In this document: in pieces, positions 4,252-34,000 of the stretch
Layout of the letters: each line of letters begins with the position of its first letter
Numbering within the stretch: position 1 is the stretch's first letter
Assembly: GCA_032358255.1 (NCBI GenBank)
Contig: JAULBX010027739.1
Coordinates: forward strand, 1-34,513
DNA: 34,513 bases
Direction: 5' to 3'
DNA from: Heterotrichella gracilis
Lineage: Eukaryota; Sar; Xanthophyceae; Tribonematales; Xanthonemataceae
The notes under the pieces: model-generated
Database searches by the model: none
Seen by the model: the letters and a program-made list of their open reading frames with translations, nothing else
What the model was told of the DNA's origin: nothing
Translations under genes and position numbers: made by a program

Positions 4252-4271
4252 GCCTGTGGAAGGAAGCCACC
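4228..4271. repeat. 22-bp tandem duplication over the SGNH start codon
   Basis: Two adjacent 22-bp units (4228-4249 and 4250-4271) differ at one base. On the minus strand each unit carries TTCCACAG followed by GC and then AT, so the duplication doubles a potential splice acceptor and supplies the predicted ATG of the SGNH gene. Confidence 0.8.
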
Positions 4272-6070: not shown

Positions 6071-9000
6071 TTATCTGCCAGCTGAGCTGTCGCCTTGTGC
6101 TGACTTGGCCAACAGGTCATGCGCCGTCTCCAACGCCTTGCGGAATGAGATGGTTGTCTCCGCCAGCTGCACACAGGGCACCACAACGGTTACTTTGGGT
6201 TTGGGGTTTGGGGTTTAGGGTTTAGGAGTAGGAGTACAGCTGTATGGATCGGGAATGAGATGGTCATCAGCGCCAGCCGCACACACGTCACCACAACGAT
6301 AAATTTCGGTTTAGGGTTCAGGGTTTGGGGTTTAGGGTTGAGATGATTGCGTGCATGGTTGTATTCAGTACCAAGGTGAAGGCATATCTGATTGACTGTC
6401 CACTAGCTTGTAACCAGCAGGTGTATTTTACTACATGTACAACATTGATATAACTGAGTGAGCCCATAGCAGCTGTCCTCATGCACACATAAACAGCGGG
6501 ATCGCAACCCCATGGCCCGCAACGATCATGCAAAATCTCTTTCCAACTTGATGCATCCGGTAGCAAGCCATGACTTCTTCCATCAGGACCAAAGAACCCC
6601 CCCACAACACCCCTCACAGTATGTTGCAACCATACCTGTGCTCGCAACGTCTTGTTTGTTACGTCTAGTTGCTTCAGCTTGCGCTCAGTCTTGGCCTGCT
6701 CATCCGCCATGGTGTTGACCGCTGACTTGAGTGTCGCGTTCTCCTTGCGCACCGTCCTGGCATCCTGCATTTAGGTTTTAGGGTTCAGTGACGCATTCTG
6801 CTCGCGCACAGTCCTGGCATCCTGTGTTTAGGGGCCAGGAGCTAGATGCTGGTTACGAGTTTTGATTGGAACCTGTTGGAACCGTACTGAGATCCTAGCA
6901 AAACCCTACCTCCTGCACCTGCACCAGCTCTATGTGCGCCTGCGCAGCGCAACGTCTACCAAACCCTATCACCCTCTGCCGTGTGCACCACCTGCGCCGC
7001 ATCCTTGTGCACCGCATCCGCTTGGGAGGCTTCTCATTGCAACCCTCCTGAGCCCCTGTTAAAACCCTTTTAAAACCCCGCTTGAACCCCACCTCCTGCG
7101 CCTGCACCAGCTCCATGCGCGTCTTGCCCAGCGCAATGAGAACCCTACTGAAACCTTGTTAAAACCCTACCTCCTGCGCATACACCAGCTCCATGCGGGT
7201 CCTGCGCAGATTGGTGCGCTGCGTAGAATACCTTACCGGCACCCTACGAAAACCCTGTGATATCCAATTGGGAACCCTACCTCCTGCGCCTGCACCAGCT
7301 CCATGTGCCTCTTGCGCAGCGCAACAAGAACCCCACTGACACCCTATTACAGCCCTACCAAAACCCTACCAAAAACCACCTCCGCCTGCACCAGCTCCAT
7401 GCGGTCTTGCGCAGCTCGTTCCGCTGCGCACAAACCCCTAATGAAACCCTACCAAAGCCCTACCTCCTGCGCCTGCACCAGCTCCATGCGCGTCTTGCGC
7501 AGCTCGTTGCGCTGCGTGGAGATGACCGCCTCGACCTCGTTGGCCCAGGCAAGCAGCTTGTGCTCTCGTGTGCTTCGGTTGCCGTTGCTCACCACAGACG
7601 CCCCGGGGTTGCCTTGCCTGAAGGAGGGAGGGTGCATGCAGGTGAGTGCTGAGTCTTGGAGGACGGCACGCTTCAAACGGTAGCAGCAATGCAAGTGTGG
7701 GATGCCTAAGGTGGGTGTTGCACTCATGTCATTCGAATGTTGCACTCATGTTATTCGAATGTTGCACTCATGTTATTCGAAAGTTGCACTCATGTTATCC
7801 GGTACCGCTTGTGGGACAGCTTGGTTTAAGCCTTGGTTTCAACTTTTGATTTGCATGTGCTTCTCAGTCCAAACTTAAACGTGTGAATGCCTCCCAGCTG
7901 GGTGAGCTTGTCCTTACAGGCCTTGAACCCCGCAACCCCACCCCTTAAAGCCCCCGCACCACGCACCAGTTGTCAAACACCTCCACCAGTGCCGGCTCGT
8001 CAAAGTTGAGCGCAAGCACACTGTTTAGGGTTAAGGGTTTATGATGTAGGGTTTAATACCACCCCGCAGCACCCACCAGTTGTCAAACACCTCCACCAAT
8101 GCTGGCTCATCGTACTTGAGCGCCAGCACGCTGTTGTTGCCAGCCTGCCACGTCACAGCTTGCTTGCCGCCGCTGTCCACCTGCAGGCAAAGGGGAGGTG
8201 AGTACTGCTTAGGATTTAGGGTTCAGGGTTGGCCGCCTGCCACGTCACAGCCTGCTTGCCGCCGCTGTCCACCTGCAGGGGAATGGCAGGTGAGCACCGC
8301 TCACGGCTTAGGAACCCTAAACCCTATTCACTTGTACACATGCGACAGATGCGCTGTGCTCCATCATGTGACATGCCACAGGGTGAAGCACAGGGCAGGG
8401 TGGGGGCCTGCAAGTGCGGACTTACTAACAATCCATCTAATTTAGCTTATTGGCCTTTATACATATCCCAGGAGAAAATTTAGTTGTTTCTCCTGGGATC
8501 CCTGAGATTGAACTCCACCACAACCCCCGTTGCCAAACGGACATAAATGTCAAATAAAAATGTCAAACACGAGTGTAAAAAGTCCGCCGTAGCCTATGTA
8601 CCATGCACGCGTTTCTAGTCCACTCACCAGCACGTATTTGTACTCCACCACAGACCCCGTGGGCACCTCCACGTCCACATTCCACATGTCCCCCTCGCTC
8701 CACACTAGCTCAGGGCCAGAAGCCAGGTTCCAATTGCCTGAGAGCAGGGGTACCGTTTGCCAGTGTTAATCAGGTTTTGCAAGCAGCTTATTGTCATCGT
8801 ATCGTCCCTCACACAACCTCACATTTTAGCCCAACATAGTTGCATATGCAAATGAAAGGGGAAAGGAAAAGGGGGGAAAAGGTTGCATACCTATGGCTTC
8901 GTGCGAGCCCACCAGGCGCATGCGCTGCCCATACTGCGCATGGAAGTTGAGCCAGAACTTGACGCGCGCCAGTTTGGGGGTATACAGCGTGGACGCGTCA

Positions 9001-10494
9001 GTCAGCTGCATCTCAGCGAGCTGCTGGGAAGGAGTAGGGGTGGGGGCGAGGTAGGATTGGGACGCGGCTGGCTGGGGAGTAGGGGTAGATGTGGGGGTGG
9101 GGGCGAGGAAGGACTGGGACTGGGACGAGGCTGACTGGGGATCCACTCGGTCCCCGCGGCTGCCGAAGGATGTTTGGAAGGTGGGGGCAGCGGCCCGGGG
9201 CTGGCGGCGGGTGGGCATGGGAGTGGGGGCCGGGGCGGGGGTGGAGGGCGGCGTGGGTGCCACCGGCGCGGGCAGCGTGTGTGTGCGCGTGGGTGGGGGT
9301 GCTGGCGGGGTGTGTGTTGTTGCTGCGCTGGTTGTTGACACCGCGTGGTCGTGGACCAGGGTTGGCGGCGGCGGCGCCTGCTGTGGCGGGAATTGAATCT
9401 GAGACATCTGCGCCGGACACCATGCCTTGAACCATGTGCAACAGCAGCAAAGCAAGGTACGCATGCAACGCAGTGGGGCGTGCCTGAGTGAGGCATTTCT
9501 TGTGACACTTGAACACCAGTACACGATACCATTTCATTCCATTTCTTTCATTCAATTCCATTCACTTCATTTCATTTCAGTCACTTTCATTCTTCGTCAT
9601 TCAACTTCCCTCCCCTTCAATTTACTTTGCAAGCACCCACCTGTCCAGGATTGACCGTGGCCGCGTGCCAGTCGCATATCCGCTGGGGCACCAAACCCTA
9701 AACCCTAACCCTTAAACAGCTTGAATTTGCCGAGTGCTTGTCAGCAGCCAGGCAAGCCAGTCAGAGTCAGCTGTGCAGGCGCCTTTGCATGAGGCGACAA
9801 GGCCGTTATTATCACAACTATACATTTCATGTCACTTATGTTTACTTTGCGCACACCCACCTGTCCAGGTTTTGCCGTGGCCGCGCGCCGGTCGCAAATC
9901 CGCTGCACAATGCTCTCCTTCAGCGACCCATTTCGTTCATTTCATTTGACTTCACTGGACTTCTCACTTCACTTCATTCCATTTCACTTCCCTCCTTCCC
10001 TTCCCTTCCCTTTACATGCCCCCACCTGTCCAGGTTTGGCCGTGGCTGCCCGCCTGTCGCGTATCCGCTGCAGTATGCTCTCCCTCAGCGACCCGTTTGA
10101 TGGCGGGGTATACTGTTCCAGGGAGAGCGAGGTGTCCTGGGTATCCCGGGGTGGGGAGGAGGCACCATTGCTCAGGTGGTTGCTGCCAGCCTGGGGCCGC
10201 ACCAACCTCGCTACAAACACGACAAGGAATAGGATTAGGGGCATTCCGAGGAATAGGGATAGGATTAGCGGCATTACGGGGATGAGGGATAAGGGAGGCT
10301 TGGAGGGATGGAGGTGCACCAGTGGAAGCAGTGCAGTGCTGGTAGTCCAATCAGTGCAGGGTTTTGTCCTGGCGCTTACCTGTCCTTGGGCGGGGGCGCA
10401 TCGCTTGCAGCGCGCTGTGTTGGTGTTGCGATGGAGGCCCCGACCTCTGCCCTGTTGCCATTGGGTGGAAGGGCTTGTGCATGGGCACACCCAT
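6071..10494 (-). CDS. CBM20 starch-binding protein with C-terminal coiled coil, 8 exons
   Basis: Model: complement(6071..6166, 6636..6764, 7464..7617, 8077..8180, 8628..8737, 8891..9407, 10026..10210, 10380..10494), 469 aa. All phases agree, and the start has a strong ACCATGG context. Residues 1-100 are Arg/Pro-rich; 101-240 form a low-complexity Pro/Thr/Ala linker. The CBM20 module spans about 247-350, built from four exons. It shows RLVGSHEAIGNWN with binding-site Trp275 (LGDW equivalent), Trp291 before the VEVP strand, EYKYVL with Lys306, and VTW with Trp320. Residues about 360-462 are charged and heptad-like (e.g. NELRKTRMELVQAQE, TERKLKQLDV). CBM20 binds starch granules; the coiled coil suggests a scaffold or tether rather than an enzyme, as no catalytic domain is present. 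The layout recalls the algal pyrenoid proteins SAGA1/2 but is much shorter, and no canonical Rubisco-binding W-R/K motif was found. Five exons (2, 5, 6, 7, 8) have degenerate copies in neighbouring introns. Confidence 0.82.
6194..6341. repeat. two telomere-like tracts bracketing an exon-8 echo
   Basis: TTTGGGG/TTTAGGG tracts at 6194-6227 and 6309-6341 flank about 45 bp (6250-6290) that resembles the start of CBM20 exon 8 (minus-strand reading LALMTISF versus LAETTISF). The echo keeps exon-like sequence but lacks the CAG acceptor of the real exon at 6167-6169. Confidence 0.75.
6787..6824 (-). repeat. truncated echo of CBM20 exon 7
   Basis: The minus strand reads ACAG then a copy of the exon 7 start (DARTVREQNAS versus DARTVRKENAT). 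It breaks off into GAACCCTAAAACC telomere-like sequence. The acceptor is kept but no donor is visible. Confidence 0.75.
6907..7431 (-). repeat. five echoes of the 3' end of CBM20 exon 6
   Basis: Copies near 6908-6953, 7091-7137, 7170-7226, 7279-7325 and 7377-7430 repeat the coding end of exon 6 (minus-strand RMELVQAQE). Most are followed by the same GTAGGG donor running into TAGGGTTTT-type sequence. Most start part-way through the exon and have no visible acceptor. The true exon is 7464-7617, the only copy joined to a full-length exon. Confidence 0.85.
7716..7803. repeat. 22-bp tandem repeat, 4 units
   Basis: Four head-to-tail units of TGTTGCACTCATGTTATTCG plus AA with a few substitutions, in the intron between CBM20 exons 5 and 6. 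Confidence 0.9.
7967..8276 (-). repeat. echoes flanking CBM20 exon 5
   Basis: The real exon 5 is 8077-8180. A copy of its 3' half lies at 7967-8023 (reading VLALNFDEPALVEVFDNW, donor GTGCGT). A copy of its 5' half with acceptor lies at 8231-8276 (VDSGGKQAVTWQA). Both copies are cut off where telomere-like sequence begins (CCCTAAACAG next to the first, AACCCTGAACCCTAAA next to the second). Confidence 0.85.
8466..8498. repeat. perfect 12-bp inverted repeat with 9-nt loop
   Basis: TCCCAGGAGAAA at 8466-8477 pairs with TTTCTCCTGGGA at 8487-8498. It lies in the intron between CBM20 exons 4 and 5 and would form a stable hairpin in DNA or pre-mRNA. No flanking target-site duplication was identified. 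Confidence 0.9.
9528..9602. repeat. (TTCAT)n-like microsatellite
   Basis: Degenerate CATTTCATTC-type pentanucleotide runs in the intron between CBM20 exons 2 and 3. A related tract recurs at about 9928-9990, matching the tandem duplication of this interval. Confidence 0.8.
9641..9930 (-). repeat. two echoes of the 3' end of CBM20 exon 2
   Basis: Copies near 9641-9690 and 9861-9930 match the end of exon 2 (10026-10210). The nearer copy reads NGSLKESIVQRICDRRAA and keeps the CAG/GTGGGT donor. The farther one is shorter and adjoins telomere-like sequence at 9699-9717. With the real exon, donors are spaced about 165 and 220 bp apart, so exon end plus intron start was copied in tandem. Confidence 0.85.
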
Positions 10495-10510
10495 GGTGCC
10501 TTCCTTGGCT

Positions 10511-10711
10511 GGTGACCTGGAGGGGTAAATGAAGGGTAAAGAAAGGGTATAGGAAGGGTAAAGGCAGGGTACTTGTGACCTGGGAGGGCAAAGGAAGGGT
10601 AAAGGAAGGGTAAAGGTGTACCTTGCGCTGGTGACCTGGGAGGGCAAAGGAAGGGTGACTTTGGGCTGGGGACCTGAAAGGGTAAAGGAAGGGTATGATA
10701 TGCTGGTGACC
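10511..10711. repeat. G-rich minisatellite just upstream of the CBM20 start
   Basis: Irregular repeats of GGTGACCTGGGAGGGCAAAG and GGAAGGGTAAA cover about 200 bp immediately 5' of the predicted ATG (10494, minus strand). They would lie in the promoter or 5' UTR of the CBM20 gene. Confidence 0.8.
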
Positions 10712-12427: not shown

Positions 12428-15400
12428 ATGTCTGTCCGTGTTGGCTGGGCTCGAGGCCTTCCCCGCCCAGCGCTCAGATGCCATAAACCAGTGGCATCGC
12501 CTGCCATTCTCGCGCCAAAACCCAGGCCACCTGCTCGGAGCGACCCCCCCCACAGCCCCCACACCAGCGTGGTCCAAAGGCGCCATCAAAGAAGACCCCT
12601 CCAGCTCACTATGCACTCCACACCCCAAGGGCACCCGTCAAACAGCCAGCCATCGGAGGATGGTGACTCACCCACAACGCCAGCGCCACCCCATGTGCTC
12701 ATAACCACTCTGTCCAACTCCCGCCTGAGCTGCCAGACCCTAGGCGAGACCCTAGGCGAGACCCCACCCACCCTCCAGCAGCAGCTCCTGGCCTCATTTG
12801 ACTCGTTGGAGCCCCCTGATAGGCGAATCGAGTCGGCCGTCAACCTGTCTTTGGGAGGGAACGTGCTGCTGCTGTTTGCAAAGCTGTTTGCGTTTTCCAT
12901 CTCGGGATCCCTGGCGGTTCTGGCCAGCCTCGCTGACAGCTTTGTGGACATCTTCAGCCAGGTGGGTGAACCTTATACCCTAAATCACAAACCCTAAATT
13001 CTGAACACCAGCAGCGTCTGGCAGCTTTGTGGACATCTTCAGCCAAAGGTGGGTGAACCCTAAACCCCAAACCCTAAACCCTAATTAGCTCGCTGGCGGT
13101 GCTGGCCAGCCTCGCTGACAGGTTTGTGGACATTTTCAGCTGAACCCTCAACCCTGAACACGGTCTTGGCCTGCGTCGCTGACAGCTTTGTGGACATGCA
13201 TCGTCAGCCAGGTGGGTGAACCCTAAACCCTAAATCATAAACCCTAACCGCCTTCCGCCAGCTGGTGACACAACAGTATCGTGAACCCTAAACCCTACAC
13301 GTACAAGTCTGAATATCAGCCAGTCATGTAGGTGATCCCTAAAACCTAGCCATACGTGTACGGCCATTGGCCAGCACCCAATCACCCTTGTCCGGCGCTC
13401 GTGTCTGGTGGGGCTACTCCCCAGTCCACCCCCCACAACCCGCCCTGCATCGCACCCCCTCAACCGCCCAGCTGCTGCAACGACAAGACCAAGTCAGCAC
13501 TTGCGTATCCCAGGGTCTGACAAAGACAGATGCCAGCAGGCAAAAGCCAGTACCCTAAAGCTCTACCACCACAATATAAACAGCCCCACTATGGTGTGCA
13601 GGGTGTGATCAAGTTAGCTGACCGGCAGGCCAAGACCATTGACCCATGCTTCCCAGTGCGCACGGATTCTAAAATCTGATCCAAGTGTAATGGCCTGAAT
13701 TTACCTCTATGATGCTGCTGAGGGTGACAAAACATTACAGACCAGCATGGCATGACAGTAACCTCTACACCCTCAACCACATCAGCACCTTTCATGTTGC
13801 AGGGTGTATCAAGGTAGCGGACCGGCAGGCCAAGACCATCGACCCCCGCTTCCCAGTGAGCAAGGACTTAGAAACCTGACATAAATTCAAAATGGCCTGA
13901 ACCGTACACTACTGTGTTGCCGGGGGTGATACAAGATTACAGACCACCAGTAAAAAAGCCCTAAACACTACACCCTAAAACCACATCAACAACCGCCATT
14001 TTGCAGGGTGTGATCAAGGTAGCTGACCGGCAGGCCAAGACCATCGATCCCCGCTTCCCAGTGGGCAAGACCAGGCTGGAGACCGTGGCTGTCATCAGCT
14101 GTGCAGTGGTGATGAGCCTCAGTGCGGCGGCTGTCATCCAGTCCAGTGCGGGGCAGCTCTGGGAGGGCTGGGCTAAAGGTAAAGCCATGGCTGAGAGATG
14201 GTGGTTGTAAAAGACATGAGCACCCATGATCAGCGTCAGGACTGGTTGGCCACCATTTGCCACACTGGAAACAGTGTCAGTTAAGCCTTGGCTCCAGGAG
14301 TGGGATGAGGCATACCCGGACATGCTAACCTGGCTTCACAGCTGGAAAGCAAATATTTACTTACTTACCTACCCATGATCAGCTGCGATCAGCCACGATC
14401 ACAGCAGCCATGATCAGCTGTGAGTGAGAGCATGATCAGCTGCGATCGGGTGCAATCGGCCTCTTATCAACTGCAATCTGCCTCTTATTATTTACATTGA
14501 TGATGATGCAACTCATGGCTTGCAGGTACGGGTCCTGCCCCTTCTACCCTTCCTGCCCCATGCTTTGCAGGTGTGGTCCCCTCGCTGGATATGTCAGTGG
14601 TAGCGTATGCCATCCTGGGAGGCACCATTGGGCTCAAGGCCTGCCTCTACTGCCTGTGTGCGGCACTGAGCACCATCTCCGACACAGCAATGGCGCTGGC
14701 GGTATGTGAAGGGTTTAGGGGTCAGGGGTCAGGGGTCAGGGCTGAGCAGCTGTTGAAACCCCAAACCCTATACCTAGGTTCACGTAAAGTAGGGATAAGG
14801 TTCACGAAATAGGGTTGATGGGGAGTGTTGGGCCTCAGCACCACCTTTGATGCAGGCATAGCGCTGGCGGTATGTGAAGGGTTTAGGGTGTGAACTGCAG
14901 GTTTTTGTAGGGTTTGGGGTTTGGCGCTTAGCACTGTATCTGATACCTACGGCACTGGCGGTATGTGCAGAGCTGAAACCTGAGTCAACTTCTGAAATTC
15001 CACACAACAAACGCTCATCAAAGTTTGGTCATCACACTGGTTTTGGTCCCTGCGTATCTTACATAGATTACATTGAACCGCAGGTTGATCACATGAACGA
15101 TATCCTGAGCAACATCATTGCAGTGGCAACCGCTGGTGTGGCCTCGCTGCACGTGGGGCTGTGGTGGGCAGACCCGTTGGGGGCGCTGCTCATCTCGGGC
15201 TACATCATCGCATCATGGACCATGATTGCCAAGCAGCAGGTGGGTTTGAATTCACATGCTTTCTGTGAACCATAGAACTGCGTGTAGAACAAGATGCGTG
15301 GAATTGGGAATAATGGGTGTGATTGTGGGGCAGCCTGTGGTGATGATGTTGTGGTGGCCGATCCTGTGGGTGTGGTGCTCATCTCTGGCTGCATTATCGC

Positions 15401-17261
15401 GTCGTGGACCATGATCGCAAAGCAGCAGGTGGGGTGAAAAGGGACTGGGTCCCATGGAACTGTGTGGTTGAGGAACAAGACACATGTCATTTGCAAGAGG
15501 GACATGCCAAGCAACCATGAACTGTTGAGTGTGGGGCAGCCTGCAGTGGGCGCACCCTGTGGGTTGTGCAGGTTGACACGATTGTGGGTGGGCCGCCCTG
15601 CCATGTAGCCAAATATAAATATATTATATCAAATAATGAAGCATATTGCGCATCTAACAGGGAGATGATTAGGCAAAGTAAGGCCTTGTGGCTGTATCAT
15701 GGATCCCCAATGTCAGACATACGAGGGTGGAATGCTCTATCTCAATATATATATATGTAATGGAGGGTTGTGTTTGCAGATCGACAAGATCGTTGGCCGG
15801 GGCGCCCCCGAGGATTTTGTTGCTATGCTGGAGGCCATGGCGGGGGAGCACCATCCGCTGCTCACGGTGCGTAGGACTGCACCCTATAATAATACCGCTC
15901 TACCATGTGATGTTGTACCATGAGTTAATGTACTTTCCAAATGTGTACAGCAAATTATTGGGTTTAGAAACTAGGTCGCTGTTGGAAATGTCGGTAGGGG
16001 CATCCTGGGGATGATTTTGTTGCTATGCCGGACGCGATGGCGTGGGAGCACCACCCGGTGCTCGTTTAATACATTTAAGCACCATCCACTGCTCACGGAG
16101 CGCAACATCACACCCGTGGCCTGACCTTGCGCCCTGATGGTTTCCAAATGCTTACATTTCGACCCACTGAGTTCTTGATGGCGTTATCAAGGGGCAGCCG
16201 CTACCCTCTACCCTGAGGCACAAACCCTAAATTTACCCTGAATGCTGCCGCCTTGCAGGTTGACATTGTCAAGGCGTACCACTTTGGGCAGCGCTATCTG
16301 GTGGAGATTGAGGTGGTTCTGCCCCGTGAGATGACTGTGGAGCAGTCGCATGACATCGCACTGGCACTGCAACAACAGGTGAGGGGGGCAGTGGGAGTGA
16401 AAATGAGGGGGAAACAGGACTAGGGAAAAAGGGTGTCCTATTGTAGGGTTTATTTCGAGCGCCCTAAGGCTGACAGGGACCCAGGGCTAGTCGAGGTTGA
16501 GGTGGTTCTGCCCTGTGGAGCAGTCGCATGATATCGCACTGCAACAACAAGGTGAGGGGGCCAGGTGGAGGGCTAGATTGTGGGATAAGGGTCATAAGAA
16601 ATTAGTGATGATTTTGGAACGGCTTGGTGCTGACTGAGAATATTATTTGCTTATTGTTGTTGGGTCCGCCCCATTTTTGAGGGGCTGGGGCGCGTCGGTC
16701 GGGCCTTTGTGATATGTGGACTATGAGCGGCATTGGCAGCCAAGTATTGCCAACACAATCGCCAATAGCCTGACCCATATTAAGATCGCAATACCCTGAC
16801 CATTATTCATTGCCTGGCATGCGTCATCTCCAATGCCCTGCCTTACAACCCCGTGCGCGGCCATAGGTTAAGGGTCTTGAGCGCGTTGAGCGGTGCTCTG
16901 TGCACTTGGAACCTGAGCGCAGGCAGCAGCCAAATTGGCTTACCCAAATCCCAAAAACCTTGACTGCCTGTATGCACAGGCTGAGGGGCTCGGTGCATGT
17001 TTGCTGTAAGCGGCTTTTACAGCCGATCACTACCTAACTCCCAACACCCTACCTACACCCTTCGACTTATGTGGCCTGCGCCGTTCCCTATACCCTGCCC
17101 AATAACCCCCTGTGCGCCCACAGGTCGAGGGTCTTGAGCGCGTTGAGCGGTGCTTTGTGCACGTGGACTATGAGCGCAGGCAGCAGCCGGAGCACACGAG
17201 CGACAGAGCTATGCAGGCATCGGGGGACAACCTGCGCATCAACACCGCCAGCCTGGCATAA
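12428..17261 (+). CDS. Mn-type cation diffusion facilitator (MTP8-11-like), 7 exons
   Basis: Model: join(12428..12961, 14007..14178, 14571..14701, 15084..15239, 15780..15866, 16259..16378, 17124..17261), 445 aa with all phases matching. Six membrane segments follow a soluble N-terminus of about 125 residues. The metal-site motifs are D170-S-F-V-D174 in TM2 and D281-H-M-N-D285 in TM5. FPVGKTRLETVAVI precedes TM3 and WWADPLGALLISGY begins TM6. The cytosolic C-terminal domain has VDIVKAYHFGQRYLVEIEV and FVHVDYERRQQPEHTS, as in plant Mn-CDF proteins. CDFs export divalent cations from cytosol into vacuole, Golgi or the outside by proton exchange; Mn is the likely substrate of this clade. The start is uncertain: an in-frame ATG at 12611 would remove 61 Arg/Pro-rich residues. 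A small in-frame duplication gives TLGETLGET near 12739-12768. Exons 1-7 all have degenerate copies in adjacent introns. Confidence 0.88.
12969..13001. repeat. telomere-like tract after CDF exon 1
   Basis: Degenerate ACCCTAAA repeats begin 7 nt past the exon 1 donor GTGGGT. The same arrangement recurs after the exon 1 echoes at 13056-13085 and about 13217-13244. Confidence 0.85.
13012..13219 (+). repeat. three echoes of CDF exon 1 3' end
   Basis: Copies at about 13012-13055, 13088-13140 and 13163-13219 resemble the exon 1 end (ADSFVDIFSQ). The first and third keep GTGGGTGAACCC after the exon; the second runs directly into TGAACCCTCAACCC. None has an obvious acceptor, and frame shifts are present (for example an extra AA before the first donor). 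Confidence 0.87.
13602..14178 (+). repeat. about 203-bp tandem repeat, intron end plus exon 2 start, 3 units
   Basis: Exon-2-like starts after a GCAG acceptor occur at 13602, 13803 and 14007 (spacing 201 and 204). Each begins GGTGT and runs through the reading ADRQAKTIDPxFPV. In the first two copies the match ends after about 60 nt and passes into related intron sequence. Only the third continues into the full exon with a donor, so it is taken as the functional one. Confidence 0.88.
14319..14365. repeat. dispersed repeat, copy B
   Basis: Near-identical to 1833-1877 over about 45 bp starting GACATGCTAACCTGGCTTCA. It lies in the CDF intron between exons 2 and 3. Confidence 0.6.
14374..14460. 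repeat. CATGATCAGCTG short repeats
   Basis: CATGATCAGCTG occurs at 14374, 14409 and 14431 with related GATCAGC variants between. This is a local simple repeat in the CDF intron between exons 2 and 3. The core TGATCA and CAGCTG are palindromic. Confidence 0.7.
15351..15428 (+). repeat. echo of CDF exon 4 3' half
   Basis: Reads ADPVGVVLISGCIIASWTMI in one frame, against ADPLGALLISGYIIASWTMI in the real exon. It ends in AAGCAGCAG plus a GTGGGG donor. Upstream the match decays and no phase-matching acceptor is present. A weak echo of the exon 5 start lies at about 15571-15604. Confidence 0.85.
16006..16930 (+). repeat. echoes of CDF exons 5, 6 and 7
   Basis: Exon 5 is echoed twice (16006-16068 and 16075-16101), exon 6 once with an internal deletion (16491-16553, then AAGGTGAGG). 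Exon 7 is echoed upstream of itself (16865-16930, with an AG to AA change at its acceptor). The exon 7 end is echoed again after the stop at about 17285-17328. All are frame-broken. Confidence 0.8.
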
Positions 17262-22021: not shown

Positions 22022-25000
22022 ATGGGGAGGAAAAGGCGCCTCGCCCGGCGCACGAACCCCGCTGGAAAGGCCAGCAGGGCCAGGACGGAACCCCTGGCCT
22101 CGCCACGAACCAGCAATCAGCTTGGCGTATTGGACTGGGGAGGTCACGATACAGAGGAATACTACGGGGCAGACACGGACGACGAGTCTCAGGGAGGCCA
22201 GGAGGAGTATGCTCACGAGGACTTGGCGCTGGGTAACGTGCTGCTAGCACCTGAGGACCTCTTTTCCGACGCTCCTGGGGATGTCCTTTCCGACGCAGAC
22301 GTTCGGGACAGGGGGGAGGGGGCTGCGCACTCCCACAGCCAGGTGTGTGTGTGTGCTGGGGGGGGGCGGGGGAGAGAAGGGAGGGTTTGGCATATGCATG
22401 CATACTCCATACTGGAGAGTGTTTGGTGGCCAAGCTTTGGTCACCTGCTCCAGGCCTATACTGGAGGCCGTGCTGCTGTTGAAAATGGTGTCATGCGCAT
22501 ACACCACCGTACCATACACACCACCAGCACCACCACACGCCATCACCACCACAAGACACCACCACCACTACGTGCACCACAACCACCACACACACCACCA
22601 CACACCACCTATGCCGCATTAATCACCAGCACCAACACCACCACACACCAGCACCATCATTACACACCATCATCGCGTTCACCGCCACAAACACCACTAC
22701 TTTGGGTTGCCGCCGGTGCACCCACACCAGCCACTCGACCCTAAACCCTAAACAAACGTGCAGGCCCCCCAGCCCTATCACCCCCATGCCCCTGGACAAG
22801 CCACTCTGACAGGCTTCGTACCAGACCACCGAGTTCTCATACTATTTGACCTGAATGGTAAGCTCAAACCCTAAACCCTAAACCACTTAACCCTAGACAG
22901 GCTTCACACCACACCACCGAGTGCCCATACTCTTTGACCTGAACAGTAAGCCTAATCCTAAAGGGTTCAAGGGCTTGCACAACTTAGGGTTTAGAGTTTA
23001 TTTACACTAGACAAGCCCCACTGACAGACATCACACCAGATCACCGAGTGCTCATACTGTTTGACCTGAACGGTACGCTCAAACCCTTAACCCTTACACC
23101 CATAAAACTTTAAACCCTAGACAAGCTTACTCTGACGGGCTTCACACCAGACCCCCGAGTCCTCATACTGTTCGACCTGAACGGTAAGCTCAAACCCTAA
23201 ACCCTAAATTATATAAGACCCTAGACCCTTAACCCTAGACGAGCGATCTGACAGGCTTCACACCAGACCACCGAAGTCCTCATACTGTTCGACCTGAATG
23301 GTAAATCCAGACCCTAAACCCTTAACAGTGCTGCGTGACCTGCGTGGTAAGCCATCACAGCCCTCCTGGGGAAAACAAGGTGCACACCCTAAAACTCTGA
23401 ACCCTGACCAAACCACGTGGGTTGTTCCAGGTGTGCTGGTTCACACGAAGCGCACGATTCACACACGACGTGCACGAAAAACCCTAAACGTCAAAACCTA
23501 AACTCTGATTGAATCGTGTTCCAAGTGTGCTGGTGCCACGAGCGCAAGGTTCACATGCATTGTGTACCCTAACTCATTAATCCCAAACGTCAAACTCTGA
23601 CCGAACCATGTTGCATGTCCAGGTGTGCTGTTTCACATGTGCACACGAAGTGCATCCCAAACCCTAACTAAAATCCTAAATTCTGACGGAACTACGTTGG
23701 TTGTTTCAGGTGTGCTGGTTCACAAGAATTCTCCACATGATGTGCAGCTGCGACCAGGGCTCCACCACTTGCTGCGCCTGATTGGGCCCTTCAGGTACAC
23801 CCTAAACCCTAAGACCTGAACCCTAAACCCTAAAATAAGGTTGGTCAGCTGCGTCCTGGGCTCCACCACCTGCTGTGCCTCATCGGGCCCTTCAGGTACT
23901 GTGAAGCAAACCCTAAACCCTAAACTGTCCATATCTAGTTCCTGCCATTCACCTCATCCACCACTCTATTCCAGTTTCCGCCGTTCTGTTCAAGCGAAAA
24001 CCAACAGCGCCAACACCCACTGAGGGTCAAAAGGTACCCATCATTTCCTATCACCTCGTTTACAGGCTTGGCATCTATTCCTCCGCCACAATTGGGACTG
24101 TGCAGAACCATGTGGGAGCCATTCAGAAGGCGCTGCGCCAGGCGGTGGGGAGGGATAGGGAGCTGCTGCGCCTGTGCGGCACTGTTCCCAAGCAGATGTT
24201 CGAGTGCATCTTGCACCGCCACCACTGCAGGCCGGGACCGCAGGTGCGTGGAAAGGGATGTTTGGAAGTGGTGAAGTGCGTTTGTTGGACTTCCTCGAGC
24301 GTGGTAGGGCTTGGGTAGGGCTGGGGTTTAGGGTTTAGGGTTTATACCATCTGCAGCTGATCCTGGTGGATGCATCCTCCAACAATGACACACACTATGC
24401 ATGTGTATCTTTCAGTAGCCACTGCCAAGTGCCAGCCCCTTGGAAACCCTCTTCGAAAAAACCCTAAACCCTAAACAGCCTTGTGATTCATCAGGGTCAA
24501 GGCAAGGACTGGGCGACTGTGAAGCCGCTGGCGGTCCATTTCGGCCCCTCTGTGCATCGGGTGATTCTGATGGATGCATCCACCAAAAGTGGCCACGCGC
24601 CACGCACTCACCTTCTGAAAAGGCACTGCCAAATGCCCAGATAAACCTCTCCATTGAGCCAACCCCACAATCTCAAACCCTAAACAGCCAATATTACCAC
24701 AGGGTCAAGGCAAGGACTGGGCGACAGTCAAGCCGCTGGGGGTGCATTTTGGCCTCTTTGTGAATCGGGTGATACTGGTGGATGACAGCAGGGACAAATC
24801 GGTGCAAGGGGAGGAAGAAAACATGGTGGTCATGCCCAGCTGGGGTAGGGGGAATGAGAGCGACGTGGGTCTGGAGGTGCGTGACAGGAGGCTTAGGGTT
24901 TAGGCTAGGGTTTTGAATTGTGTTGTTCAAGGGTTTGGGGAGGAGGAGAACACAGTGGTGGTGCCAACCTGGGGTAGGAGGAAGGAGAGGGATGTGAATC

Positions 25001-28000
25001 TGGAGGTGCGCGACAGGAGGCATAGGGTTGTGGTCAGGGTTTTTTCTTTTAGGGTTTGGGGATAGGAGGCAGGAGAGCGATGTGGGTCTGGAGGTGCATG
25101 GTAGGACCCTAAACACTTCCCACGCTCCGTGCAGGCGCTGGTTGAGGCACTGCTGGAGACGATTGGTGGGGAACAGTGCCAGCCCAACACGGATGTGAGC
25201 CAGCTTCACACAGCCATTGCCCTGAAGATGCAGAGCCAGGTGGGCATGGTGGGCAGGCTTGTTCTGAATAATATGATTACGATGAATTCAATTTGATTAT
25301 GATGAATTCAATTTGATTATTATTATGATTGTTCAATTTCTAAAAAATATGATATCGTCGTTATATCGTTGATTTCTTATCATTGAACTGTCATGAACTT
25401 ATTATCATCTGCATTTCGTAAGAACACAGTAACCAAAAACCAAAAAATAAACAAAATGAAAGCGACCAAATAAAGCAAACAACTAGTAGGACAGGTCCCA
25501 TTTTTCGAAAGGAAGTACAGGGTTAGTACCGTTGACGCAGCTGAGCCCCTGCCGCTGTCCATGTGAGCAGGCGGCCACCCTTGCTGCAGCCGGCGGGCAC
25601 ACAAGTGAGCAGCCAGGGGTAGATCAAGCAGTGCCAGGCCAAACAGCGCCAGGTCAAGCAGCGCCAGGCCAAACATCGCCAGGTCAAGCAAGGCCAGGTA
25701 AAGGGAGGCGGGGTGAAGCAGGGCTGCTGGCGCCTCTCCAGGACCTGGCACAGCTGGACCAGCGCCTGGTGTCTGAGCTGTATGAGGTACTGGCGCTGCA
25801 CGCCCTCACGGTGAGGAAAAAGTATATCAGTTCAATTTAAGGGTTGTATGTGGCGTAGTCGAGACCCTGTGCAGGGTAGTCCGGTGTTTGTCTGCATTTG
25901 TTCTTTAAACTGGAGGGGTCATATTCTGGGACTTGGCACATGGGGTTCAGCGCCTGGTGGCCGAGCTGTATGAGGTGCTGGCGCTGCATGCCCTCACGGT
26001 AAGGGCAAATTATCTCAGTTCAATTACAGGGGTTGTATGTGGCGTAGTGGAGAACTTGTGCAGGGTAGTCCGGTGTTTGTCTGCATTTGTTCTTTAAACT
26101 GGAGGGGTCATATTCTGGGACTTGGCACATTGGGATCAGCGCCTGGTGTCTGAGCTGCATGAGGTGCTGGCGCTGCATGCCCTCACGGTGAGGGTATATT
26201 GCTGCGGAGACCATGTGCAAACGGCGTGAATAAAACCTTTTAAGTAGGACCCGAAAACTTTGCCAGGAAATGGTTTTTTAATATTAAAATTAATGGGGGG
26301 GGTCTCGCAAATGTGCAACATTTCCGGGACGTTGACGGAGCAGAATTGGGTCCCGTGACCCAACGCACCCATAACTTCAGCTTGTCTGACCGCAACACCC
26401 AAGTCGATAATCGAAAAGCATTTCCACTATTTTTAGAAGCATCTAAAAACTCATTACTTAATTTAGAAACCATATTTTTACCTGACCGATTTCTACAAGA
26501 AGATAAAATCCAACGTATAGCTAAAGCCGTCCCACGTTCTGGATTTACTTCTAAAGGAACTTGGTAAGTTGAGTAAAGCGAACGACTTTCCCGCGCGCGC
26601 ACTGCTGCCTCTGCCCTGAGGTTTATCCCCCTTGTGAAAACAACCGGGGAGGAACCACAGGCGGGCCATTAAAATACAATATTTTAATGTGCACGAAGAG
26701 GCAGTAGTAGGGGAAATACTTAACCTTTTAAGTATATTATAGTTCATATAGCAACAAAATGATTTATTTGATATTATTATGACTATTGTGACTTGCATGA
26801 TTACAATATTACATACCTTGCAAATATTGAAAAGTAGGAAATAGACGCTAAAGCGCTGATTGCTACTTCTTGAGGCTCATATTTCCATGTGCTTGGCTCC
26901 CAGGTCCTCTCCTGGTCCCCCCTTGCATTCGATGATGCCATGGTGCAGCACTGCATCGCCACGCGCATCCTCCCCCCCCACAAGGTCAACACGGAGGGGC
27001 TTTTCAGGGAGGGCTGGCTACCCGGGGTGATCAACCGCATGGTGGCTAAGGGGAGGCTGCAAACGGTGCGTGGGATGCAGGGTCGGTGGTTAGGGTTTTG
27101 ATCAACGCTGCCCACATTGTGTGCGGCTTTCCTGGGCTCTAGGTGTAGGGTTGGGCTCCTGGTGTAGGGTTTAGGGTTGTAGGGTCAGCACCGAGGGGCT
27201 TTCAGGGAGGGCTGGCTGCCTGGGGTGATCTACTGCGTGGTTGCTAAGGGGAGGCTGCAAACGGTGCGTGGGATAGATGGTGGATGGGGGGCGGCTACAA
27301 GCGGTGCGTGGGATAGATGGTGGATAAGGGGAGACTACAAGCGGTGCGTTGGATCCAGTGCTGTTAACTTGGCTTCTAAACAGCGCTGTCCACATTGTGT
27401 GCAGAACCCTGAAGGTTCTAGGGTTTGGGGTTGGACTTCGAGAAGCCCTTCAGGGGGCCATGGCTGCCTGGCCTTGATTTACTATCAAAGTTTTGCAAAC
27501 AGGGTTCAGATTTGTTTTTTTGCGACCCCGCAATCATAAAACCCCGCGTTAATATAATATAATATGTGCCTTTGTTGTTATATGATCATGATATTTCCTC
27601 CCTGCAGTGCTGGAGCAAGCTGCAGTGCAAGGGGCCCAACTACAAGCAGCCTTCTCTGAAGGAGGTGGCGGCGGCGGTGGAGTGGGCGGTGGCGGCGTTT
27701 GGGATGGCCGGCAACCCCACACCGCACAAGCAGAGTGGGGTGAAGAAGCACAAGGATGTGCTGGTAACGCGGGCGGTGCAGCTGATTATGGTACGCTTTT
27801 TCCGGGACCCAGATTGGGTTTTCAGGGGTGTTGACATGGGTGTACTCCTGCTGCATTTGGTGTGCCTATAGGGTTTAAAATATTTAATATATACAAAAAT
27901 ATTTAAAATATACTAAATTAATTTGGTGTGCCTATAGGGTTCAAAATATTATTAATTTGGTGTGCCTATAGGGTTTTAAATATTCAATATATACTAAAAA

Positions 28001-31000
28001 TAGGGTTTAAAATATTTGCAAAAAGAGGGCACTAGACGGGGGAGAAGGGCTGATGTCGCAGCCCGAACATTTGCCTAGGAAGCACAAGGATGCGCTGATC
28101 ACGTGGGCGGTGCAGCTATTCGGCGTGCGCTTTGGGATGCTGGGGGTTAATGTCTTGCCCATGCGTGTGATTCTTCTGCATTTGTTGTGGTTGCGTACTC
28201 GTACATCTTCTACATGCGTTGTGATTATGCCGGAAAGGGGAAGCAAAACGAGTGTTCAGGCTGCGGCCAAGTTCGAGCTAAGCAGGAGGATAGCGTGTAG
28301 GACTGCTGCATTTGCCGTGACTATCTCTGCGATTAGAAGGGGGCAACAAGAAAACCTTGCTCAGGCCGCGGATAAGCATGAGCTGAGGAGGAGTCACATG
28401 CAGCCTGCCAATTGCCAGACGCTGTTTGAGGGACCACACCTTAAACCCTAAATCCCCTTTTTTGCAGGGCAAAAAGGGCCACTTGCAGGTCGCCATCCAG
28501 CAGGCGCTGTTTGATGGGCCCTACTCTGTGCGGGGGCGCGTGGGTGTCCAGGTGAAGCGGTGGGAGGCGGTGCTGGACAGGCTGGTCAAGGTGAGAACCC
28601 TAAACCCTGGGCTCCAAACCCTTACCCTAAAGCTGATTTCTACACCCTAGAGAGACTCTGTGCATGGGTGTTATGGTGAAGCGGCGGGAGGTGGAGCTGG
28701 CCAGGCTGGTGAACGGTGAAAACCTTAAAGCCTAAAACCCTTACTCAAGGTATTGATGGTGTACACCGTCGATTGTGAAGCCCGGACAGGCGCTGTGCGG
28801 GCTGCAACCCTGAACCCTAAACCCTACACCCGAAGGTGCGCAGCCTGAAACCCTACACCCTAGAATATTTCTGTGCAGGGGTGCATGCGTGTCATGGTGA
28901 AGCGGCGGTAGGTGGTGCTGGCCGGGCTGGTCAAAGTGAGAACCCTAAACCCTAGGCAGGCTGAGAAGTGCATAATGAGGCTGCACCATTGGCCGTGGAA
29001 CACAGGGGCGAGAAACAAAGGAGGTAACAATTTCCCTTGTCAGCGGTTCGATGCTGTGATGTGCCGCTCACCTCCCCTGATGCATGCTCGCAGGCGGGGA
29101 AAGTGGCGCGCATGGATGGGCCAGACACCCCACAGCCCTTCGTGCGCTATGTAGTCAACGGGGATCCTGTGGGTGAGGACCATGTGTGGGAGGCCTGTGC
29201 GCGGATGGGGCTGGCAGGGTTTTCTGGAGGGTTTTCTGGAGGGGCCAGCGAATCACAGGCGCAGATGGGTTTCGGTGGGGAAGCGGCTGGTACCGGCGGC
29301 GGTGGTGGTGGTGGTGGTGGCGGCGGTGTTAGTGGTGGTGGTGCTGTGGTGTGGGAGGCGGGTGCACAGCCAAGGGGGCTGGTGGGGTGCAGTGAGGAGG
29401 GGAGTCGGCCACTCATGGATGTGGGTGGCGGTGGGGGGGCGGCATGGGCCAGCAGGGGTTTCTGTGGCGGTGGTGGTGGTGGTGGTTATGGTGGTGGTGG
29501 TGGTGGTGTTCAATCGGCTGTGGCTGGTGGTCGCGATGGTGGTGGTGGTGGTGGTGGTGGTGGGGTGGGGATGGATACAGAGGAGGCGCGGGTGTGGGCA
29601 TCATTATACACCACCGCCACACCCACCCCCCCACAGGATGGAGGGGGTAGGGCCCCGCGGGGGGTGGCAGCCCCACCGGAGATTGGTGGTGGTGGTGGTG
29701 GTGGTGGTGGTGCTCCGCTTGTGGGGGGTGGGGGCCAGGTGTTGGAGGGTGGGGAGGGCGCGGAATGGGCATCGCTCTACAATGTGCCTCAGCAGCAAGA
29801 TCCCCCCCACCCCCATCCCCACCACCACCACAACTTCCAGCAGCACCAGTACCACCAGCAGGGGGAGTGGGGGGTCGAGGGGGGCCGGGGGGCCGGCAGG
29901 GGGGGCGAGGCTGCGGAACAGAGGAGGGATGCACCGCCCACCCCACCACCACCCTCCCCACCCACCACGCATCAAGGCCAACGAAATGTGGTGCCTTTTC
30001 TCCATCCCGGCCACGGCATTTTGCCAATCCCGGGGTCTGCAGTGGCGCATCCCCAATGGAACATGGCGATTGAGCTCCAGGCGGCGCCAGGTGGCGCACA
30101 GGCGGGACCCTACAGCAGGACCCTAGACCCTACACCCTTGTCGGGGTACCCAGCGCAGGAGTTCCTCCCCAGCAATGACTTCCCCCCTGACAATTGGACA
30201 CCCACCCACATGGCGCAGCAGATGCAGTTTCCCCAAGGGGAGTTTTCCCAAGCCCCGGGGATCCCAGGCCAATTTCCACCGCCAGGGCAATTCATGCCAG
30301 GCGCTACCGTCAATGGGGCCGGCATGTCGGGCGATGTCGGCGGCCTGACGCCTGGCCAATCCCTGCCACGCCAGCCTCCGCCAGGCCAATCCTTGCCAGG
30401 CACGTCCACTAATGGGGGCGTCGTGTGGGGTGATGCTGGCGGGCCAGGCCAATCCTCCCCGCGCCAACCCCCGTTAGGCCAGTCCTTGCAGGGCGCGTCT
30501 GTCAACGGCGGTGCCATGTTGCGCAACGCTGACGGGGCTGTGCAAGGTGCAAGGCTGCTGCCGGGCCATGGTGGTGGTGGCGGCGGCGGTGGTGGTGGTG
30601 GTGATGGCAGGGTGCCAATGCAGGCTGGGGCGGGGCAGGCGCGTGCGGCTGGGGCTGCCAACCTGTCCCAGCTGCATCACGAGGTGGGTGGGGTGTGAAG
30701 GGCTGGAGTGTGGGGTGTGTATCATGGGGTTTGGAGTGCGTGGTACGTACCACTGGGTGCACACTGCTTGGTACACTGGTTTTCTTGTAAACTATAGGCG
30801 CGTGCAACTGGGACTGCGAACCTGTCTCAGCTGCACCACGAGGTGGGTGGGTGGGTGGGGGGGTGGGGGTGCATGGCGTGTGATTACTGTTGGTACACTA
30901 CTCTTCTTATTTACTATAGAGTGTATATTTCCTGGGTGCAAATTGTTACAGTTTACCGTCTACCAACAAATACAAATGCTTGGTACAAGATGTAATCGAC

Positions 31001-34000
31001 ATTCATGCGTGACCATTATCAGTACATCATACCCTAGTATATAAAACCCAGATGGCTGTGAAGTCTGAGCGCCGCCAGCACTGCGCGCCGCCAGCACCTC
31101 TCACAGGCCAAACAGTGTCCTCGCCTTGCATACACCCACCACCAACAGTAACAACCTCCTTGACCCTTCGCCCCCCAACACCACACAGGTCGTGGAATTC
31201 ATGCGCGCCGCCAGCCCCACTACCCTCGAGCTGGCTGCTGTGGGTGAGGCCCTGCGCCACGTCAGCGATGCAGCGCGCCAGCTGTGGCCATCCTGCAGGG
31301 TCACGCTGTTTGGGTCACAGGTAGGGGCATAGGGATAGGGCGTAAAGTCATGCTATTGGGGGACTTCGGGTACAGCGCGACTGCAAATTATTAAAAATGC
31401 TTTATTAATTATAACAATATTGTGATTTATATATTCCACAATTTTTGAAATAACATTTAAACTTTAAAGCCATAACCCTACTATTGTTGTTTAATTATTG
31501 TATATTGCCATGATGGATGTTGGATAGGCATATAACCCCTTGCATGTTTCCCTCCATGCAGGCCACCGCGCTTGCGCTCCCCAGCAGCGACCTCGACATC
31601 GTGGTATTGGGGGTGGGCCAGAGGCTGCGCGCCGCGGGTTCGGGGTTTGCGCGCGCGGAGCGTGGGGGTGTGGGCGCCATGCTTGAGCAGCTCCTGGATG
31701 TGCTTGTGGTGGTGGGTGGGTTGGGGAAAAGTGGCAGCTTGTCCAGGCCAAGGTGCCCATCATCAAGTGCCAGATGGCCATAGGTGCGCAGTGCTAGTTG
31801 GTTTTTGCCCTCCTATGGAGGGTGTGGAACAAGGGTTGTGCCCTGCTCAGCTTACATATCTGGCATTTAGTTGTTGGACCCCTCTAACTCCATTCTCGCA
31901 CTCCTGTACCATGGATGTTGAGTTGGGTTAAAATTTGCCTCACTGCAAGGTAAAGCAGAGCCAATTACTACAAAGAAATACAGTTAATGCATATTAGTAT
32001 CATCACATAACTTGCTGGCATACTTGGATGACTGAGCCTCCATCCCGCTCCTGTGTATACAGCCCCCCTGCTCCTGTCTGTGGATCTGTCCATGGGCGCA
32101 GAGAATGGGGCAGCAGCGGTGGCCTTCCTGGGATCCCAGGTGCGATTGGGGAAAAGGGTCAGGTCTAGGGTTTTGTGTTGAAGGGTTTTGTGTCTGTCGA
32201 CCTATCCATGGGCGCAGAGAATGGGGCAGCAGCAGTTGCTTTCCTCGGCTCACAGGCAAATTGTGATCTGTTGTAAATGAGAATGGGTTTTTATTTTATT
32301 TTGTTGCAGCTGTGGCCTTCCTCGGCTCACAGGTGCGATTAGGATAAGGGTCAGGTCTAGGGTTTTTATTCTTTTTTGGAGGGTATTATGTTCATGGGTG
32401 CAGAGGATGGGGCGGCAGCAGTGGCCTTCTTCGGCTCACAGGTGCGTGAGGTTTGGTGGTGTGTGTAGGGGTTAGGTGGGGCCCTTAGGTAGGATGGCAT
32501 GGATAGGGCCTGGAGGTGTTTGGGAGGTTTGGTGGTGCGCATATTGTCTGATGGAGTGTGTAGGGTTTGGCGGTGCGCGCAGGGATTGGTGGTGTGCGCT
32601 CCTTGTGCAATCCTAGCATGGTGACCTGTCCCCTCCCCTCCCCTCGCGCCCTATTGCCAAGGTGCCGCCCAAGGGACCTTCCACTGTATCTGTTGACACA
32701 CAAAATGGAAGATAAAAGCTATTGTTTTCTGCATTCAGATATGTATTTCTTCACAAAACTCTTTCTTTGTGTACATCTCTTTCCCCCCCATGCCCCTGTG
32801 TGTGCTCATTGCCAATGCGCCGCCGAAGGCCACGGTATCTGTCTACATACTCAATGAAAGAAAGTTTGAACCCTGTATATCTTTCACTTCTTACTCATTG
32901 TATTCGGTTTTCCTTTGCTTTTCCAGGTGCGCCTGCTGCCCCCCCTGCGCCCCCTGGTTCTCATCTCCAAGGCGCTGCTCAAGGAGCAGAGGCTGAATGA
33001 GGTGTTCAGCGGGGGGCTGTCATCCTATGCCCTGGTCAACATGGTACTGGCACACCTGCAGGAGGAGGTGGGTGGGGGCGGGGTTGGAAGGGCCAGAAGG
33101 GGGTTCGCATTGTGGGATGGGGTGGCAGGTAGGGAGATGTGGAAGTGAATTTGCATGGGGAGGGTTAGCGCACACAGTATCAAGAGAAACAAACAAACAT
33201 ACTGCAGTAAATTGGGTGATTTTCAAGATTTGGGGGGTGATGACAATTCGTCATATTCTATAGTAATTCGTTGTAGTTTTATTTATGTTAATAAATCATC
33301 TTTTGTTCTTTTTATTGCAGGGCTTTGAGGTTGCTCATGCGGTCAGCACCTCCCTGCGCGCAAGCCACAACGCGCTGACCCTCGTCAGGGAGCTCATCGC
33401 GCTGGGAAACCCTAGCAACCCTAGGCAAGCGCCAGGCGGGCTCCAACCAGAGCCGAATGGGCAGCCTGGGGATTGCGGGGGCGGTGATTTGGGGATGCTG
33501 CTGTACGGTTTTTTCCGCCGGTTTGGGACCGATTTCAGTTACGAGAGCCAGGCTGTGAGCGTGCGCCAGGGGGGTATAATAACCAAGAGCAACCACTGGC
33601 GAAAGGTGTGTTGAGGCGAGGGGAGGGGGGTTGCGAGGGGCACCGTGTCTGTGTTAGCTTTGTTTGCAGGTGGCGACTTTCGAATGGTGCGCATGTTGAT
33701 GTGGGATGATGTCGTGCATCTGCATCCTATCCTAGTCCCTGAACCCTGAACTTTTAGCCCCCCACCACAGTCTGCAGGCAAAATAAAGCCAAAATCCTCC
33801 ATCCTCGCAGGCTGCCGGCAAAAACTCGGGGCTGCGCCTGGGCGTCGAGGATCCCCAGGAGCCTGGCAAGGACATTGGATCATCCTCCTACAACATAGCG
33901 GCGGTGCGCAGGGCGTTTGCTGCGGCTGCCGACTGGCTTCAGCCCCACGTGGGGGGCGGTGGGGTGGTGGGGGGTGGGGAGGAGCGGCTGTGGGCGGTGG

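Follow-up and report, generated by a model that had tools for sequence, protein, structure and literature searches.

The stretch of Heterotrichella gracilis DNA analysed here (34,513 nucleotides, hereafter the window) raises the question of what exactly has been copied when introns are filled with degenerate partial repeats of the exons beside them. The window is the whole of one contig (JAULBX010027739.1, C522) in an assembly of 68.5 Mb and 903 contigs. We call a partial intronic copy of the adjoining exon's edge an echo, and the exon that was copied its parent. A sequence-only reading of the window had counted at least 35 such copies of about 20 exons and had proposed the exon-intron boundary as the unit of copying. 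Our analysis enlarges the census and points to a different unit, with the echoes probably being what can still be seen of short tandem duplications that arose repeatedly inside intron-bearing genes.

Self-alignment of the window revealed a large excess of nearby copies in direct orientation. Unfiltered self-BLAST returned 75 direct and 2 inverted pairs at offsets below 500 bases (E <= 1e-3), part of the 75 being simple repeats at 19.7 and 29-30 kb. After low-complexity pairs and pairs beyond 1 kb had been dropped, 46 direct and 0 inverted pairs were left at a raw score of at least 60, while 10 third-order Markov shuffles of the window yielded 0 pairs with the same filter and score. The sequence-only reading had suggested this self-alignment and null as a check, and the result is in good agreement with its statement that the copies adjoin their parents on the parental strand. 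Of 83 direct pairs, 82 lie within 2 kb, so that almost all connect neighbouring sequences, and filtered direct pairs cover 18% of the window. Filtered echo coverage is zero in the bins 0-6000 and 18000-22000, two low-intron regions that hold the SGNH and lyase genes described earlier as free of echoes. At a score of at least 50, the 58 filtered direct pairs comprise 44 exon-to-intron copies, 10 echo-echo pairs, 2 intron-only pairs, 1 exon-exon pair and 1 pair outside the set spans. The 2 intron-only pairs represent a single place (27855-27999), and the pair outside the set spans is likewise an exon edge. The exon-internal pair that survived the filter has a 99-bp offset, is in frame and lies inside a long glycine- and proline-rich exon. 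A scan at lower threshold recovered two intron-only pairs, one direct and one inverted, at scores of at least 36 and none at 50 or above, where the main classification has 2.

Altogether, 46 echoes could be aligned, their parents being 24 stretches from 21 exons, which exceeds the number first reported. Identities range from 76 to 98%, with 19 indels across the 46 exon-echo alignments, and four of the aligned echoes comprise 20 or fewer exon bases. By our own assignment, 19 of the 25 listed introns carry at least one echo, and a further echo is found in intron 30684-31188 outside that list. Donor-side events involve 17 exons and acceptor-side events 7 (own listing). Judged by eye, the GT is kept in 30 of 35 donor-side echoes, and some echoes start beside an AG. 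Neighbouring copies are offset by 57-334 bp with a median of 128 bp (28 hand-listed values), and head-to-tail tandem arrays of 111, 129, 189 and 200 bp are present in the window. The offsets seem to cluster at about 85-130 and 185-210 bp, the latter near the nucleosome repeat length, although 28 values are too few to claim this. Introns that hold echoes have a mean length of 591 bases and those without one of 303 (p = 0.003), which agrees with intron growth, though long introns also offer more room.

The nature of the copied unit was addressed with a gap test, in which the stretch of intron separating an exon from its first echo was compared with the sequence that follows this echo, the post-echo DNA of other events serving as controls. 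The sample consisted of 18 donor-side events, 16 from the window and 2 from a KH-domain gene elsewhere in the genome (L002); a nineteenth event (C_E2) had no controls. The matched comparison beat every control in 12 of the 18 events (mean rank fraction 0.10, p = 2e-9, a rough value because controls are shared between events). An earlier gap test against shuffles had given z > 2 in 6 of 17 events, with all 17 above zero. For the KH-gene copy, z was -1.17 in the first gap test; inspection by eye shows an insertion beyond which the match picks up again, and the local gap test was positive. Given this homology past the splice site, the unit is best seen as an ordinary tandem duplication through the border. 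Gap homology and tandem arrays together indicate that intron is part of the unit, and the proposal of the boundary as the copied unit is thus not supported. The accompanying description, by which copies include the donor or acceptor and then break off, holds for the splice edge, whereas the break is only apparent since weak homology continues through the intron. Many echoes carry intron sequence beside the exon part. Further, all listed echoes but one, whose alignment ends 18 bases short, come as near as 5 bases or less to the exon edge, in keeping with tandem geometry, and no exon interior alone has been copied into an intron there.

Why, then, do the detected copies appear confined to exon edges? 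A simulation with uniform tandem duplications and equal neutral rates predicted that about half of the detected events would be intron-only, and splice-site targeting seemed strongly indicated on this basis (p from 3e-8 to 1e-12). Calibration on the events' own parts overturned this result. When 24 duplications were scored by part, the exonic part alone passed detection in 20 and the intronic part alone in 3, and the simulation had been misleading because intronic parts decay faster than it assumed. Calibrated in this way, about 16% of events are expected to be intron-only. An exonic half, kept recognisable by selection on the exon, outlasts its intronic counterpart, so that ascertainment explains the larger part of the border specificity, though perhaps not the whole of it. 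Between echoes, exon-derived halves are more alike than intron halves in 8 of 8 arrays (0.878 against 0.739, null 0.707, p = 0.008; a few copy ends set some bases off in this comparison).

In these alignments, matched copies run from the exon interior through the splice site into the intron, as would be left by a tandem duplication of roughly 57-334 bp. One exonic copy would stay under purifying selection, and the extra intronic copy would be tolerated while the donor upstream of it, or the acceptor downstream, remains the site used in splicing. Because splicing would hide the extra copy from the protein, such duplications could persist and decay. Alignment against controls shows that the intronic part was duplicated too but has decayed, with the exonic part staying recognisable. 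With less certainty, and as a guess, short G-rich repeats of telomere-like sequence (TTTAGGG/CCCTAAA), which abound in these introns, may be where the duplications originate, through template switching or the repair of breaks; the TTTAGGG type is given as ancestral for green algae in the portion of PMC8226300 available to us. Together with an organellar-type S7 fragment and the proline-rich linker of the lyase, these repeats would suggest a Chlamydomonas-like green alga. Bins richer in telomere-like sequence per kb also have higher direct-pair coverage (rho 0.42, p = 3e-9, 184 bins). A telomere-like 6-mer lies at the joint or up to 20 bases upstream in 10 of 17 donor-side events, where the content of these introns would predict 4.0 (p = 0.0008). 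At several joints, a telomere-like repeat was seen by eye to meet a piece of exon that shares its short motif.

Similar copies are present in other contigs. We sampled 16 ten-kb stretches at blindly chosen positions, on contigs that had already come up in the analysis except for C1. The stretch on C1 (L039; 894 kb contig) was left out for its composition, since its GC content is 0.357 and it lacks CpG depletion, in contrast to the other sampled stretches; C1 is probably a contig of other origin within the assembly. The remaining 15 stretches contained 46 direct and 8 inverted pairs at a score of at least 50. Two of them, L051, which we take to be VPS13-like, and L040, which adjoins a weak MFS match, hold 32 of the 46 direct pairs and reach a coverage of 15-18%, similar to that of the window; direct pairs are absent from 7 of the 15. 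In 30 kinase loci (107 kb), which were best matches and hence biased to long exons, 8 direct pairs and 1 inverted pair were found at a score of at least 60, and 1 of 4 multi-exon kinase stretches had a pair. Copies with a shared splice-like edge were recognised by eye in L002, L040, L051, L020, L037, L044, L045, L053, L056, L003 and L007. Echo copies thus occur in other contigs, unevenly, so that the pattern is concentrated in some genes and not confined to this contig, a confinement that had been named as grounds for dismissing it. Direct-orientation copies in several contigs likewise support the earlier claim of a recurrent local duplication process. Genome-wide searches with two of the arrays returned one match each and no second copy, the search skipping very common words.

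Selection on the echoes was assessed from differences between exon and echo at 2830 aligned positions (24 window stretches and six sets outside the window). Differences at codon positions 1, 2 and 3 numbered 89, 69 and 173, giving a third-position share of 173/331 (0.523). For neutral echoes compared with a constrained exon, our own estimates of this share are 0.445, or up to about 0.49 with composition considered. Differences private to some echoes in multi-echo sets are nearly uniform over the codon positions (33/21/38), as are the echo-variable columns including extra loci (38/23/42). The third-position differences fit functional exons and mostly neutral echoes, with the exception of an exon of a TRF4/PAP-type gene, which differs from its echoes by 18 synonymous and 3 other codon differences. 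One TRF4 echo, in which 9 of 9 differences are synonymous, had prompted the idea of coding constraint on echoes in general; this fails overall, with 154 of 309 differences at third positions when TRF4 is removed.

A number of observations weigh against tandem duplication followed by neutral decay. Six of the 18 gaps failed to beat all controls (B_E1, B_E2b, C_E4, TRF4, A_E2 and A_E3), and the tandem unit is undemonstrated there. Intron-only copies are still too rare after calibration, with 1 place among 25 or 31 events (p = 0.07 or 0.03, depending on how events are counted), so that there is perhaps a residual exon-edge excess over the ascertainment-corrected expectation. The contrast between exon and intron halves is not predicted by neutral decay of one unit, unless repeat-rich intron parts mutate faster, which could be the case. 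The third-position share exceeds 0.445 (p = 0.003), though it is not above 0.49 (p = 0.13), and the counts are overdispersed between sets (P = 0.019). The TRF4 exon and its three echoes have 19 of 22 differences at third positions, unlike the other window sets, and the loci outside the window have 30 of 44. In-frame stops in echoes number 1 where 6.8 are expected (p = 0.007). As for the origin of the duplications, the correlation with telomere-like repeats is no demonstration of cause, and a young joint in L020 has no obvious microhomology by eye. Finally, apparent intron-bearing stretches with few or no echoes imply that the duplication rate varies by gene.

Some of these points would be met by a process aimed at splice sites that copies exon-intron borders, for example by inserting a border copy, templated by nearby DNA or unspliced pre-mRNA, at nearby breaks. 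The 44 exon-linked and 10 echo-echo pairs against only 2 intron-only pairs agree with such a process, as do the half of intron-only events expected from the uniform simulation, the preference for the donor side (17 exons against 7) and the different conservation of exon and intron halves. However, the unit continues through the intron in 12 of 18 testable events, the calibrated intron-only expectation falls to about 16%, one echo sits at a stop codon/3' untranslated region (UTR) edge, and tandem geometry by itself requires echoes to reach the exon edge, which makes border copying unlikely. We assign somewhat more weight, though still as a minority view, to a true bias beyond ascertainment, in which telomere-like G-rich repeats just inside introns are hotspots from which the polymerase jumps back into the exon, re-copying exon ends and donors; the exon edges of these genes would then supply the material for intron growth, with some copies, as in TRF4, kept exon-like as spare exon ends by selection or conversion. 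That some echoes are in use as alternative exon ends, decoy donors or conversion partners and are kept by selection is a separate proposal. It would explain the third-position excess in TRF4 (19/22) and in the outside loci (30/44), the scarcity of in-frame stops, the AG beside which some echoes begin and the GT kept in 30 of 35 donor-side echoes. Without TRF4, though, third-position differences (154/309) are near the neutral 0.445-0.49, keeping GT in 30 of 35 is the prediction of about 9% neutral divergence, 19 indels interrupt the 46 alignments, and the efflux and phosphatase gene models described below need no echo, so that we regard this use as very unlikely.

There is a slight chance that the echoes are an assembly artefact, with haplotypes collapsed or stuttered and joined in tandem. 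Synonymous-rich exon differences combined with strongly diverged introns would suit two alleles side by side, but the arrays of 4-6 copies (exon counted), the spread of identities from 76 to 98%, the similar anatomy in other contigs and the two arrays without a second copy in the assembly do not. Introners or another mobile element carrying splice sites are barely credible as a source. A donor followed by telomere-like sequence does recur in several introns, as such elements would predict; against this, 82 of 83 direct pairs in the window lie within 2 kb, and the two whole arrays searched have a single match in the genome, where introners would place one sequence in many introns genome-wide. 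Retrocopies and whole-exon duplication had both been set aside in the sequence-only reading, and we concur. Echoes carry intron sequence beside their exon part, and a search of 25 introns for copies of exon-exon joints gave five alignments of at least 8 bases across a joint, none convincing, the far side adding little beyond the chance score alone. Only one echo, that of exon 25742-25810, spans a full exon, and its acceptor is absent.

Tandem duplication through the border has precedents, and tandem duplication across intron-exon borders in single genes as well as tandem duplication as a source of introns are already known. According to the portion of PMC4974935 available to us, the potato RdRp gene contains an internal tandem duplication across an intron-exon boundary. 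There too, the duplicated unit spans the border and carries splice signals, but the outcome was a new intron in one gene, whereas here the introns stay in place, and in several genes most introns hold one to several decayed copies. Tandem duplication as a source of introns is reviewed in PMC3443670, which, in the part accessible to us, describes duplications within genes rendered harmless by splicing, as is the case here. In contrast to that model, echoes run from the exon into the existing intron and not into the next exon, so they are no record of intron creation. In agreement with this, an upstream exon end joined to a downstream exon start within the intron (a Rogers-type arrangement) was not found in 25 introns. 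Minisatellite expansion within genes (PMC2812944, as far as its accessible text goes) similarly involves head-to-tail repeats that alter gene structure, but the copies here are mostly few and strongly diverged, and it is the exon-edge ones that stay visible. Telomere-like insertions at breaks are known in mammals, according to the accessible sections of PMC7215372. The interstitial telomeric sequences from break repair treated there resemble the short telomere-like runs at internal sites near our joints; that work concerns insertion at breaks, whereas we read from sequence only repeats near joints. A literature search for the same pattern found single cases and models and no genome-scale pattern, which is weak evidence as subscription papers lay mostly outside its coverage. 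What sets the present case apart is the density, the survival of copies within existing introns and the enrichment of joints in telomere-like motifs. In some genes, short tandem duplications have left a datable record in most introns, beside a constrained reference, and one genome could therefore yield the rate, size and joints of such mutations. The record further suggests that a duplicate donor a short way downstream of the real one is tolerated by splicing, and it offers a simple route for intron lengthening. It also carries a warning that detection alone can create boundary specificity, since a duplication stays recognisable for longer in its exon half than in its intron half.

The echoes are located in three intron-rich regions, in which exons were modelled from homology and GT-AG borders, and all of them fall outside the modelled exons. 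On the minus strand, gene A (6100..10210) encodes a CBM20 starch-binding domain and a coiled-coil region, as supported by a CBM_20 match of 6.7e-20 on joined exons, splice sites and frames. Its seven exons are 10026-10210, 8891-9405, 8628-8737, 8060-8180, 7464-7617, 6636-6764 and 6100-6166; the model is partial, as two joints break the frame and exon 8891-9405 has no fixed start. Exon 10026-10210 has two donor-side echoes (9546-9685 and 9856-9933), and exon 7464-7617 has five (6882-6948 and 7041-7428). Exon 8060-8180 is echoed on both sides, by an acceptor-side copy at 8228..8312 and a donor-side copy at 7952..8025 in which the donor is lost. Acceptor-side echoes of exons 6636-6764 and 6100-6166 are located at 6784..6832 and 6252..6336, respectively, again on the minus strand as are all echoes of this gene.

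The second region, on the plus strand, is an MTP-type cation efflux gene (12610..17261; PF01545, 2.1e-23, and PF16916) with seven exons at 12610-12961, 14007-14178, 14571-14701, 15084-15239, 15780-15866, 16259-16378 and 17124-17261. With every echo skipped, the model encodes 384 amino acids, open to the stop codon, and the protein aligns to the cation efflux structure 3j1z over query residues 78-354. Three donor-side echoes of the first exon occupy 13008..13247, and two acceptor-side echoes of the second form a tandem array of about 200 bp at 13597..13864. The next four exons each have one donor-side echo on the plus strand, at 14825..14888, 15350..15433, 16010..16063 and 16487..16570 in the order of the exons; in case of exon 15084-15239, the intron after the echo resembles the 110 bases before it. 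Exon 17124-17261 has an acceptor-side echo at 16815..16931. The region of the stop codon is echoed in the 3' UTR at 17288..17355 (17220-17284 resembling 17288-17355), where no splice site is modelled.

In the third region (22764..33607, plus strand), an NIF-phosphatase part (PF03031, 3.4e-9) is followed by exons of a TRF4/PAP-type nucleotidyltransferase (PF03828, 3e-8). The nine phosphatase exons are 22764-22857, 23710-23794, 24066-24243, 24703-24876, 25135-25239, 25742-25810, 26904-27065, 27608-27790 and 28468-28590, over which an open frame of 391 amino acids (PF03031) runs with echoes skipped. Exon 29094-30683 comes next, and the TRF4/PAP-type exons are 31189-31320, 31562-31783, 32063-32139, 32927-33067 and 33321-33607. 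The latter are clear in part, from PF03828 and poly(A) polymerase structure matches, and exon 31562-31783 shifts the frame in the model. Both the phosphatase and the TRF4 frames seem to be continued in exon 29094-30683, which is long and rich in glycine and proline, and the two parts may form one gene. All echoes of this region are on the plus strand. Four donor-side echoes of exon 22764-22857 form an array of about 110 bp at 22896..23326. Exon 23710-23794 has three acceptor-side echoes of 13-17 exon bases each (23389..23637) and a donor-side echo (23846..23923), and exon 24703-24876 has one acceptor-side (24466..24576) and two donor-side echoes (24937..25106). Exon 25742-25810 and its intron recur twice more in a 189-bp tandem array, at 25929..26200. 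The donor-side echoes of the following exons are three for 26904-27065 (27183..27437), one for 27608-27790 (28079..28133), two for 28468-28590 (28662-28733 and 28870-28957), one for 29094-30683 (30796..30866) and three for the TRF4 exon 32063-32139 (32191-32256, 32306-32337 and 32389-32446).

The two control genes show no such copies. The SGNH/GDSL-like gene (884..4296, minus strand) has a PF13472 match below its cut-off and no echoes. The polysaccharide lyase gene (19511..20920, plus strand; PF14099) has none beyond its own proline-rich coding repeats, and a long proline-rich stretch at 19676-19951 is encoded by 24- and 48-bp tandem repeats. Intron 25811-26903 of the phosphatase part additionally contains, at 26243-26680, a copy of an interspersed repeat with 33 match rows in its own genome, itself included. 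The halves of this repeat lie within a few bases of each other at 13 or 14 other places and are split here by about 163 bases. The splitting piece is covered by a minus-strand match to an organellar-type ribosomal protein S7 (PF00177, 3.7e-17, about 26411-26605) and is probably organelle DNA inserted in the interspersed repeat.

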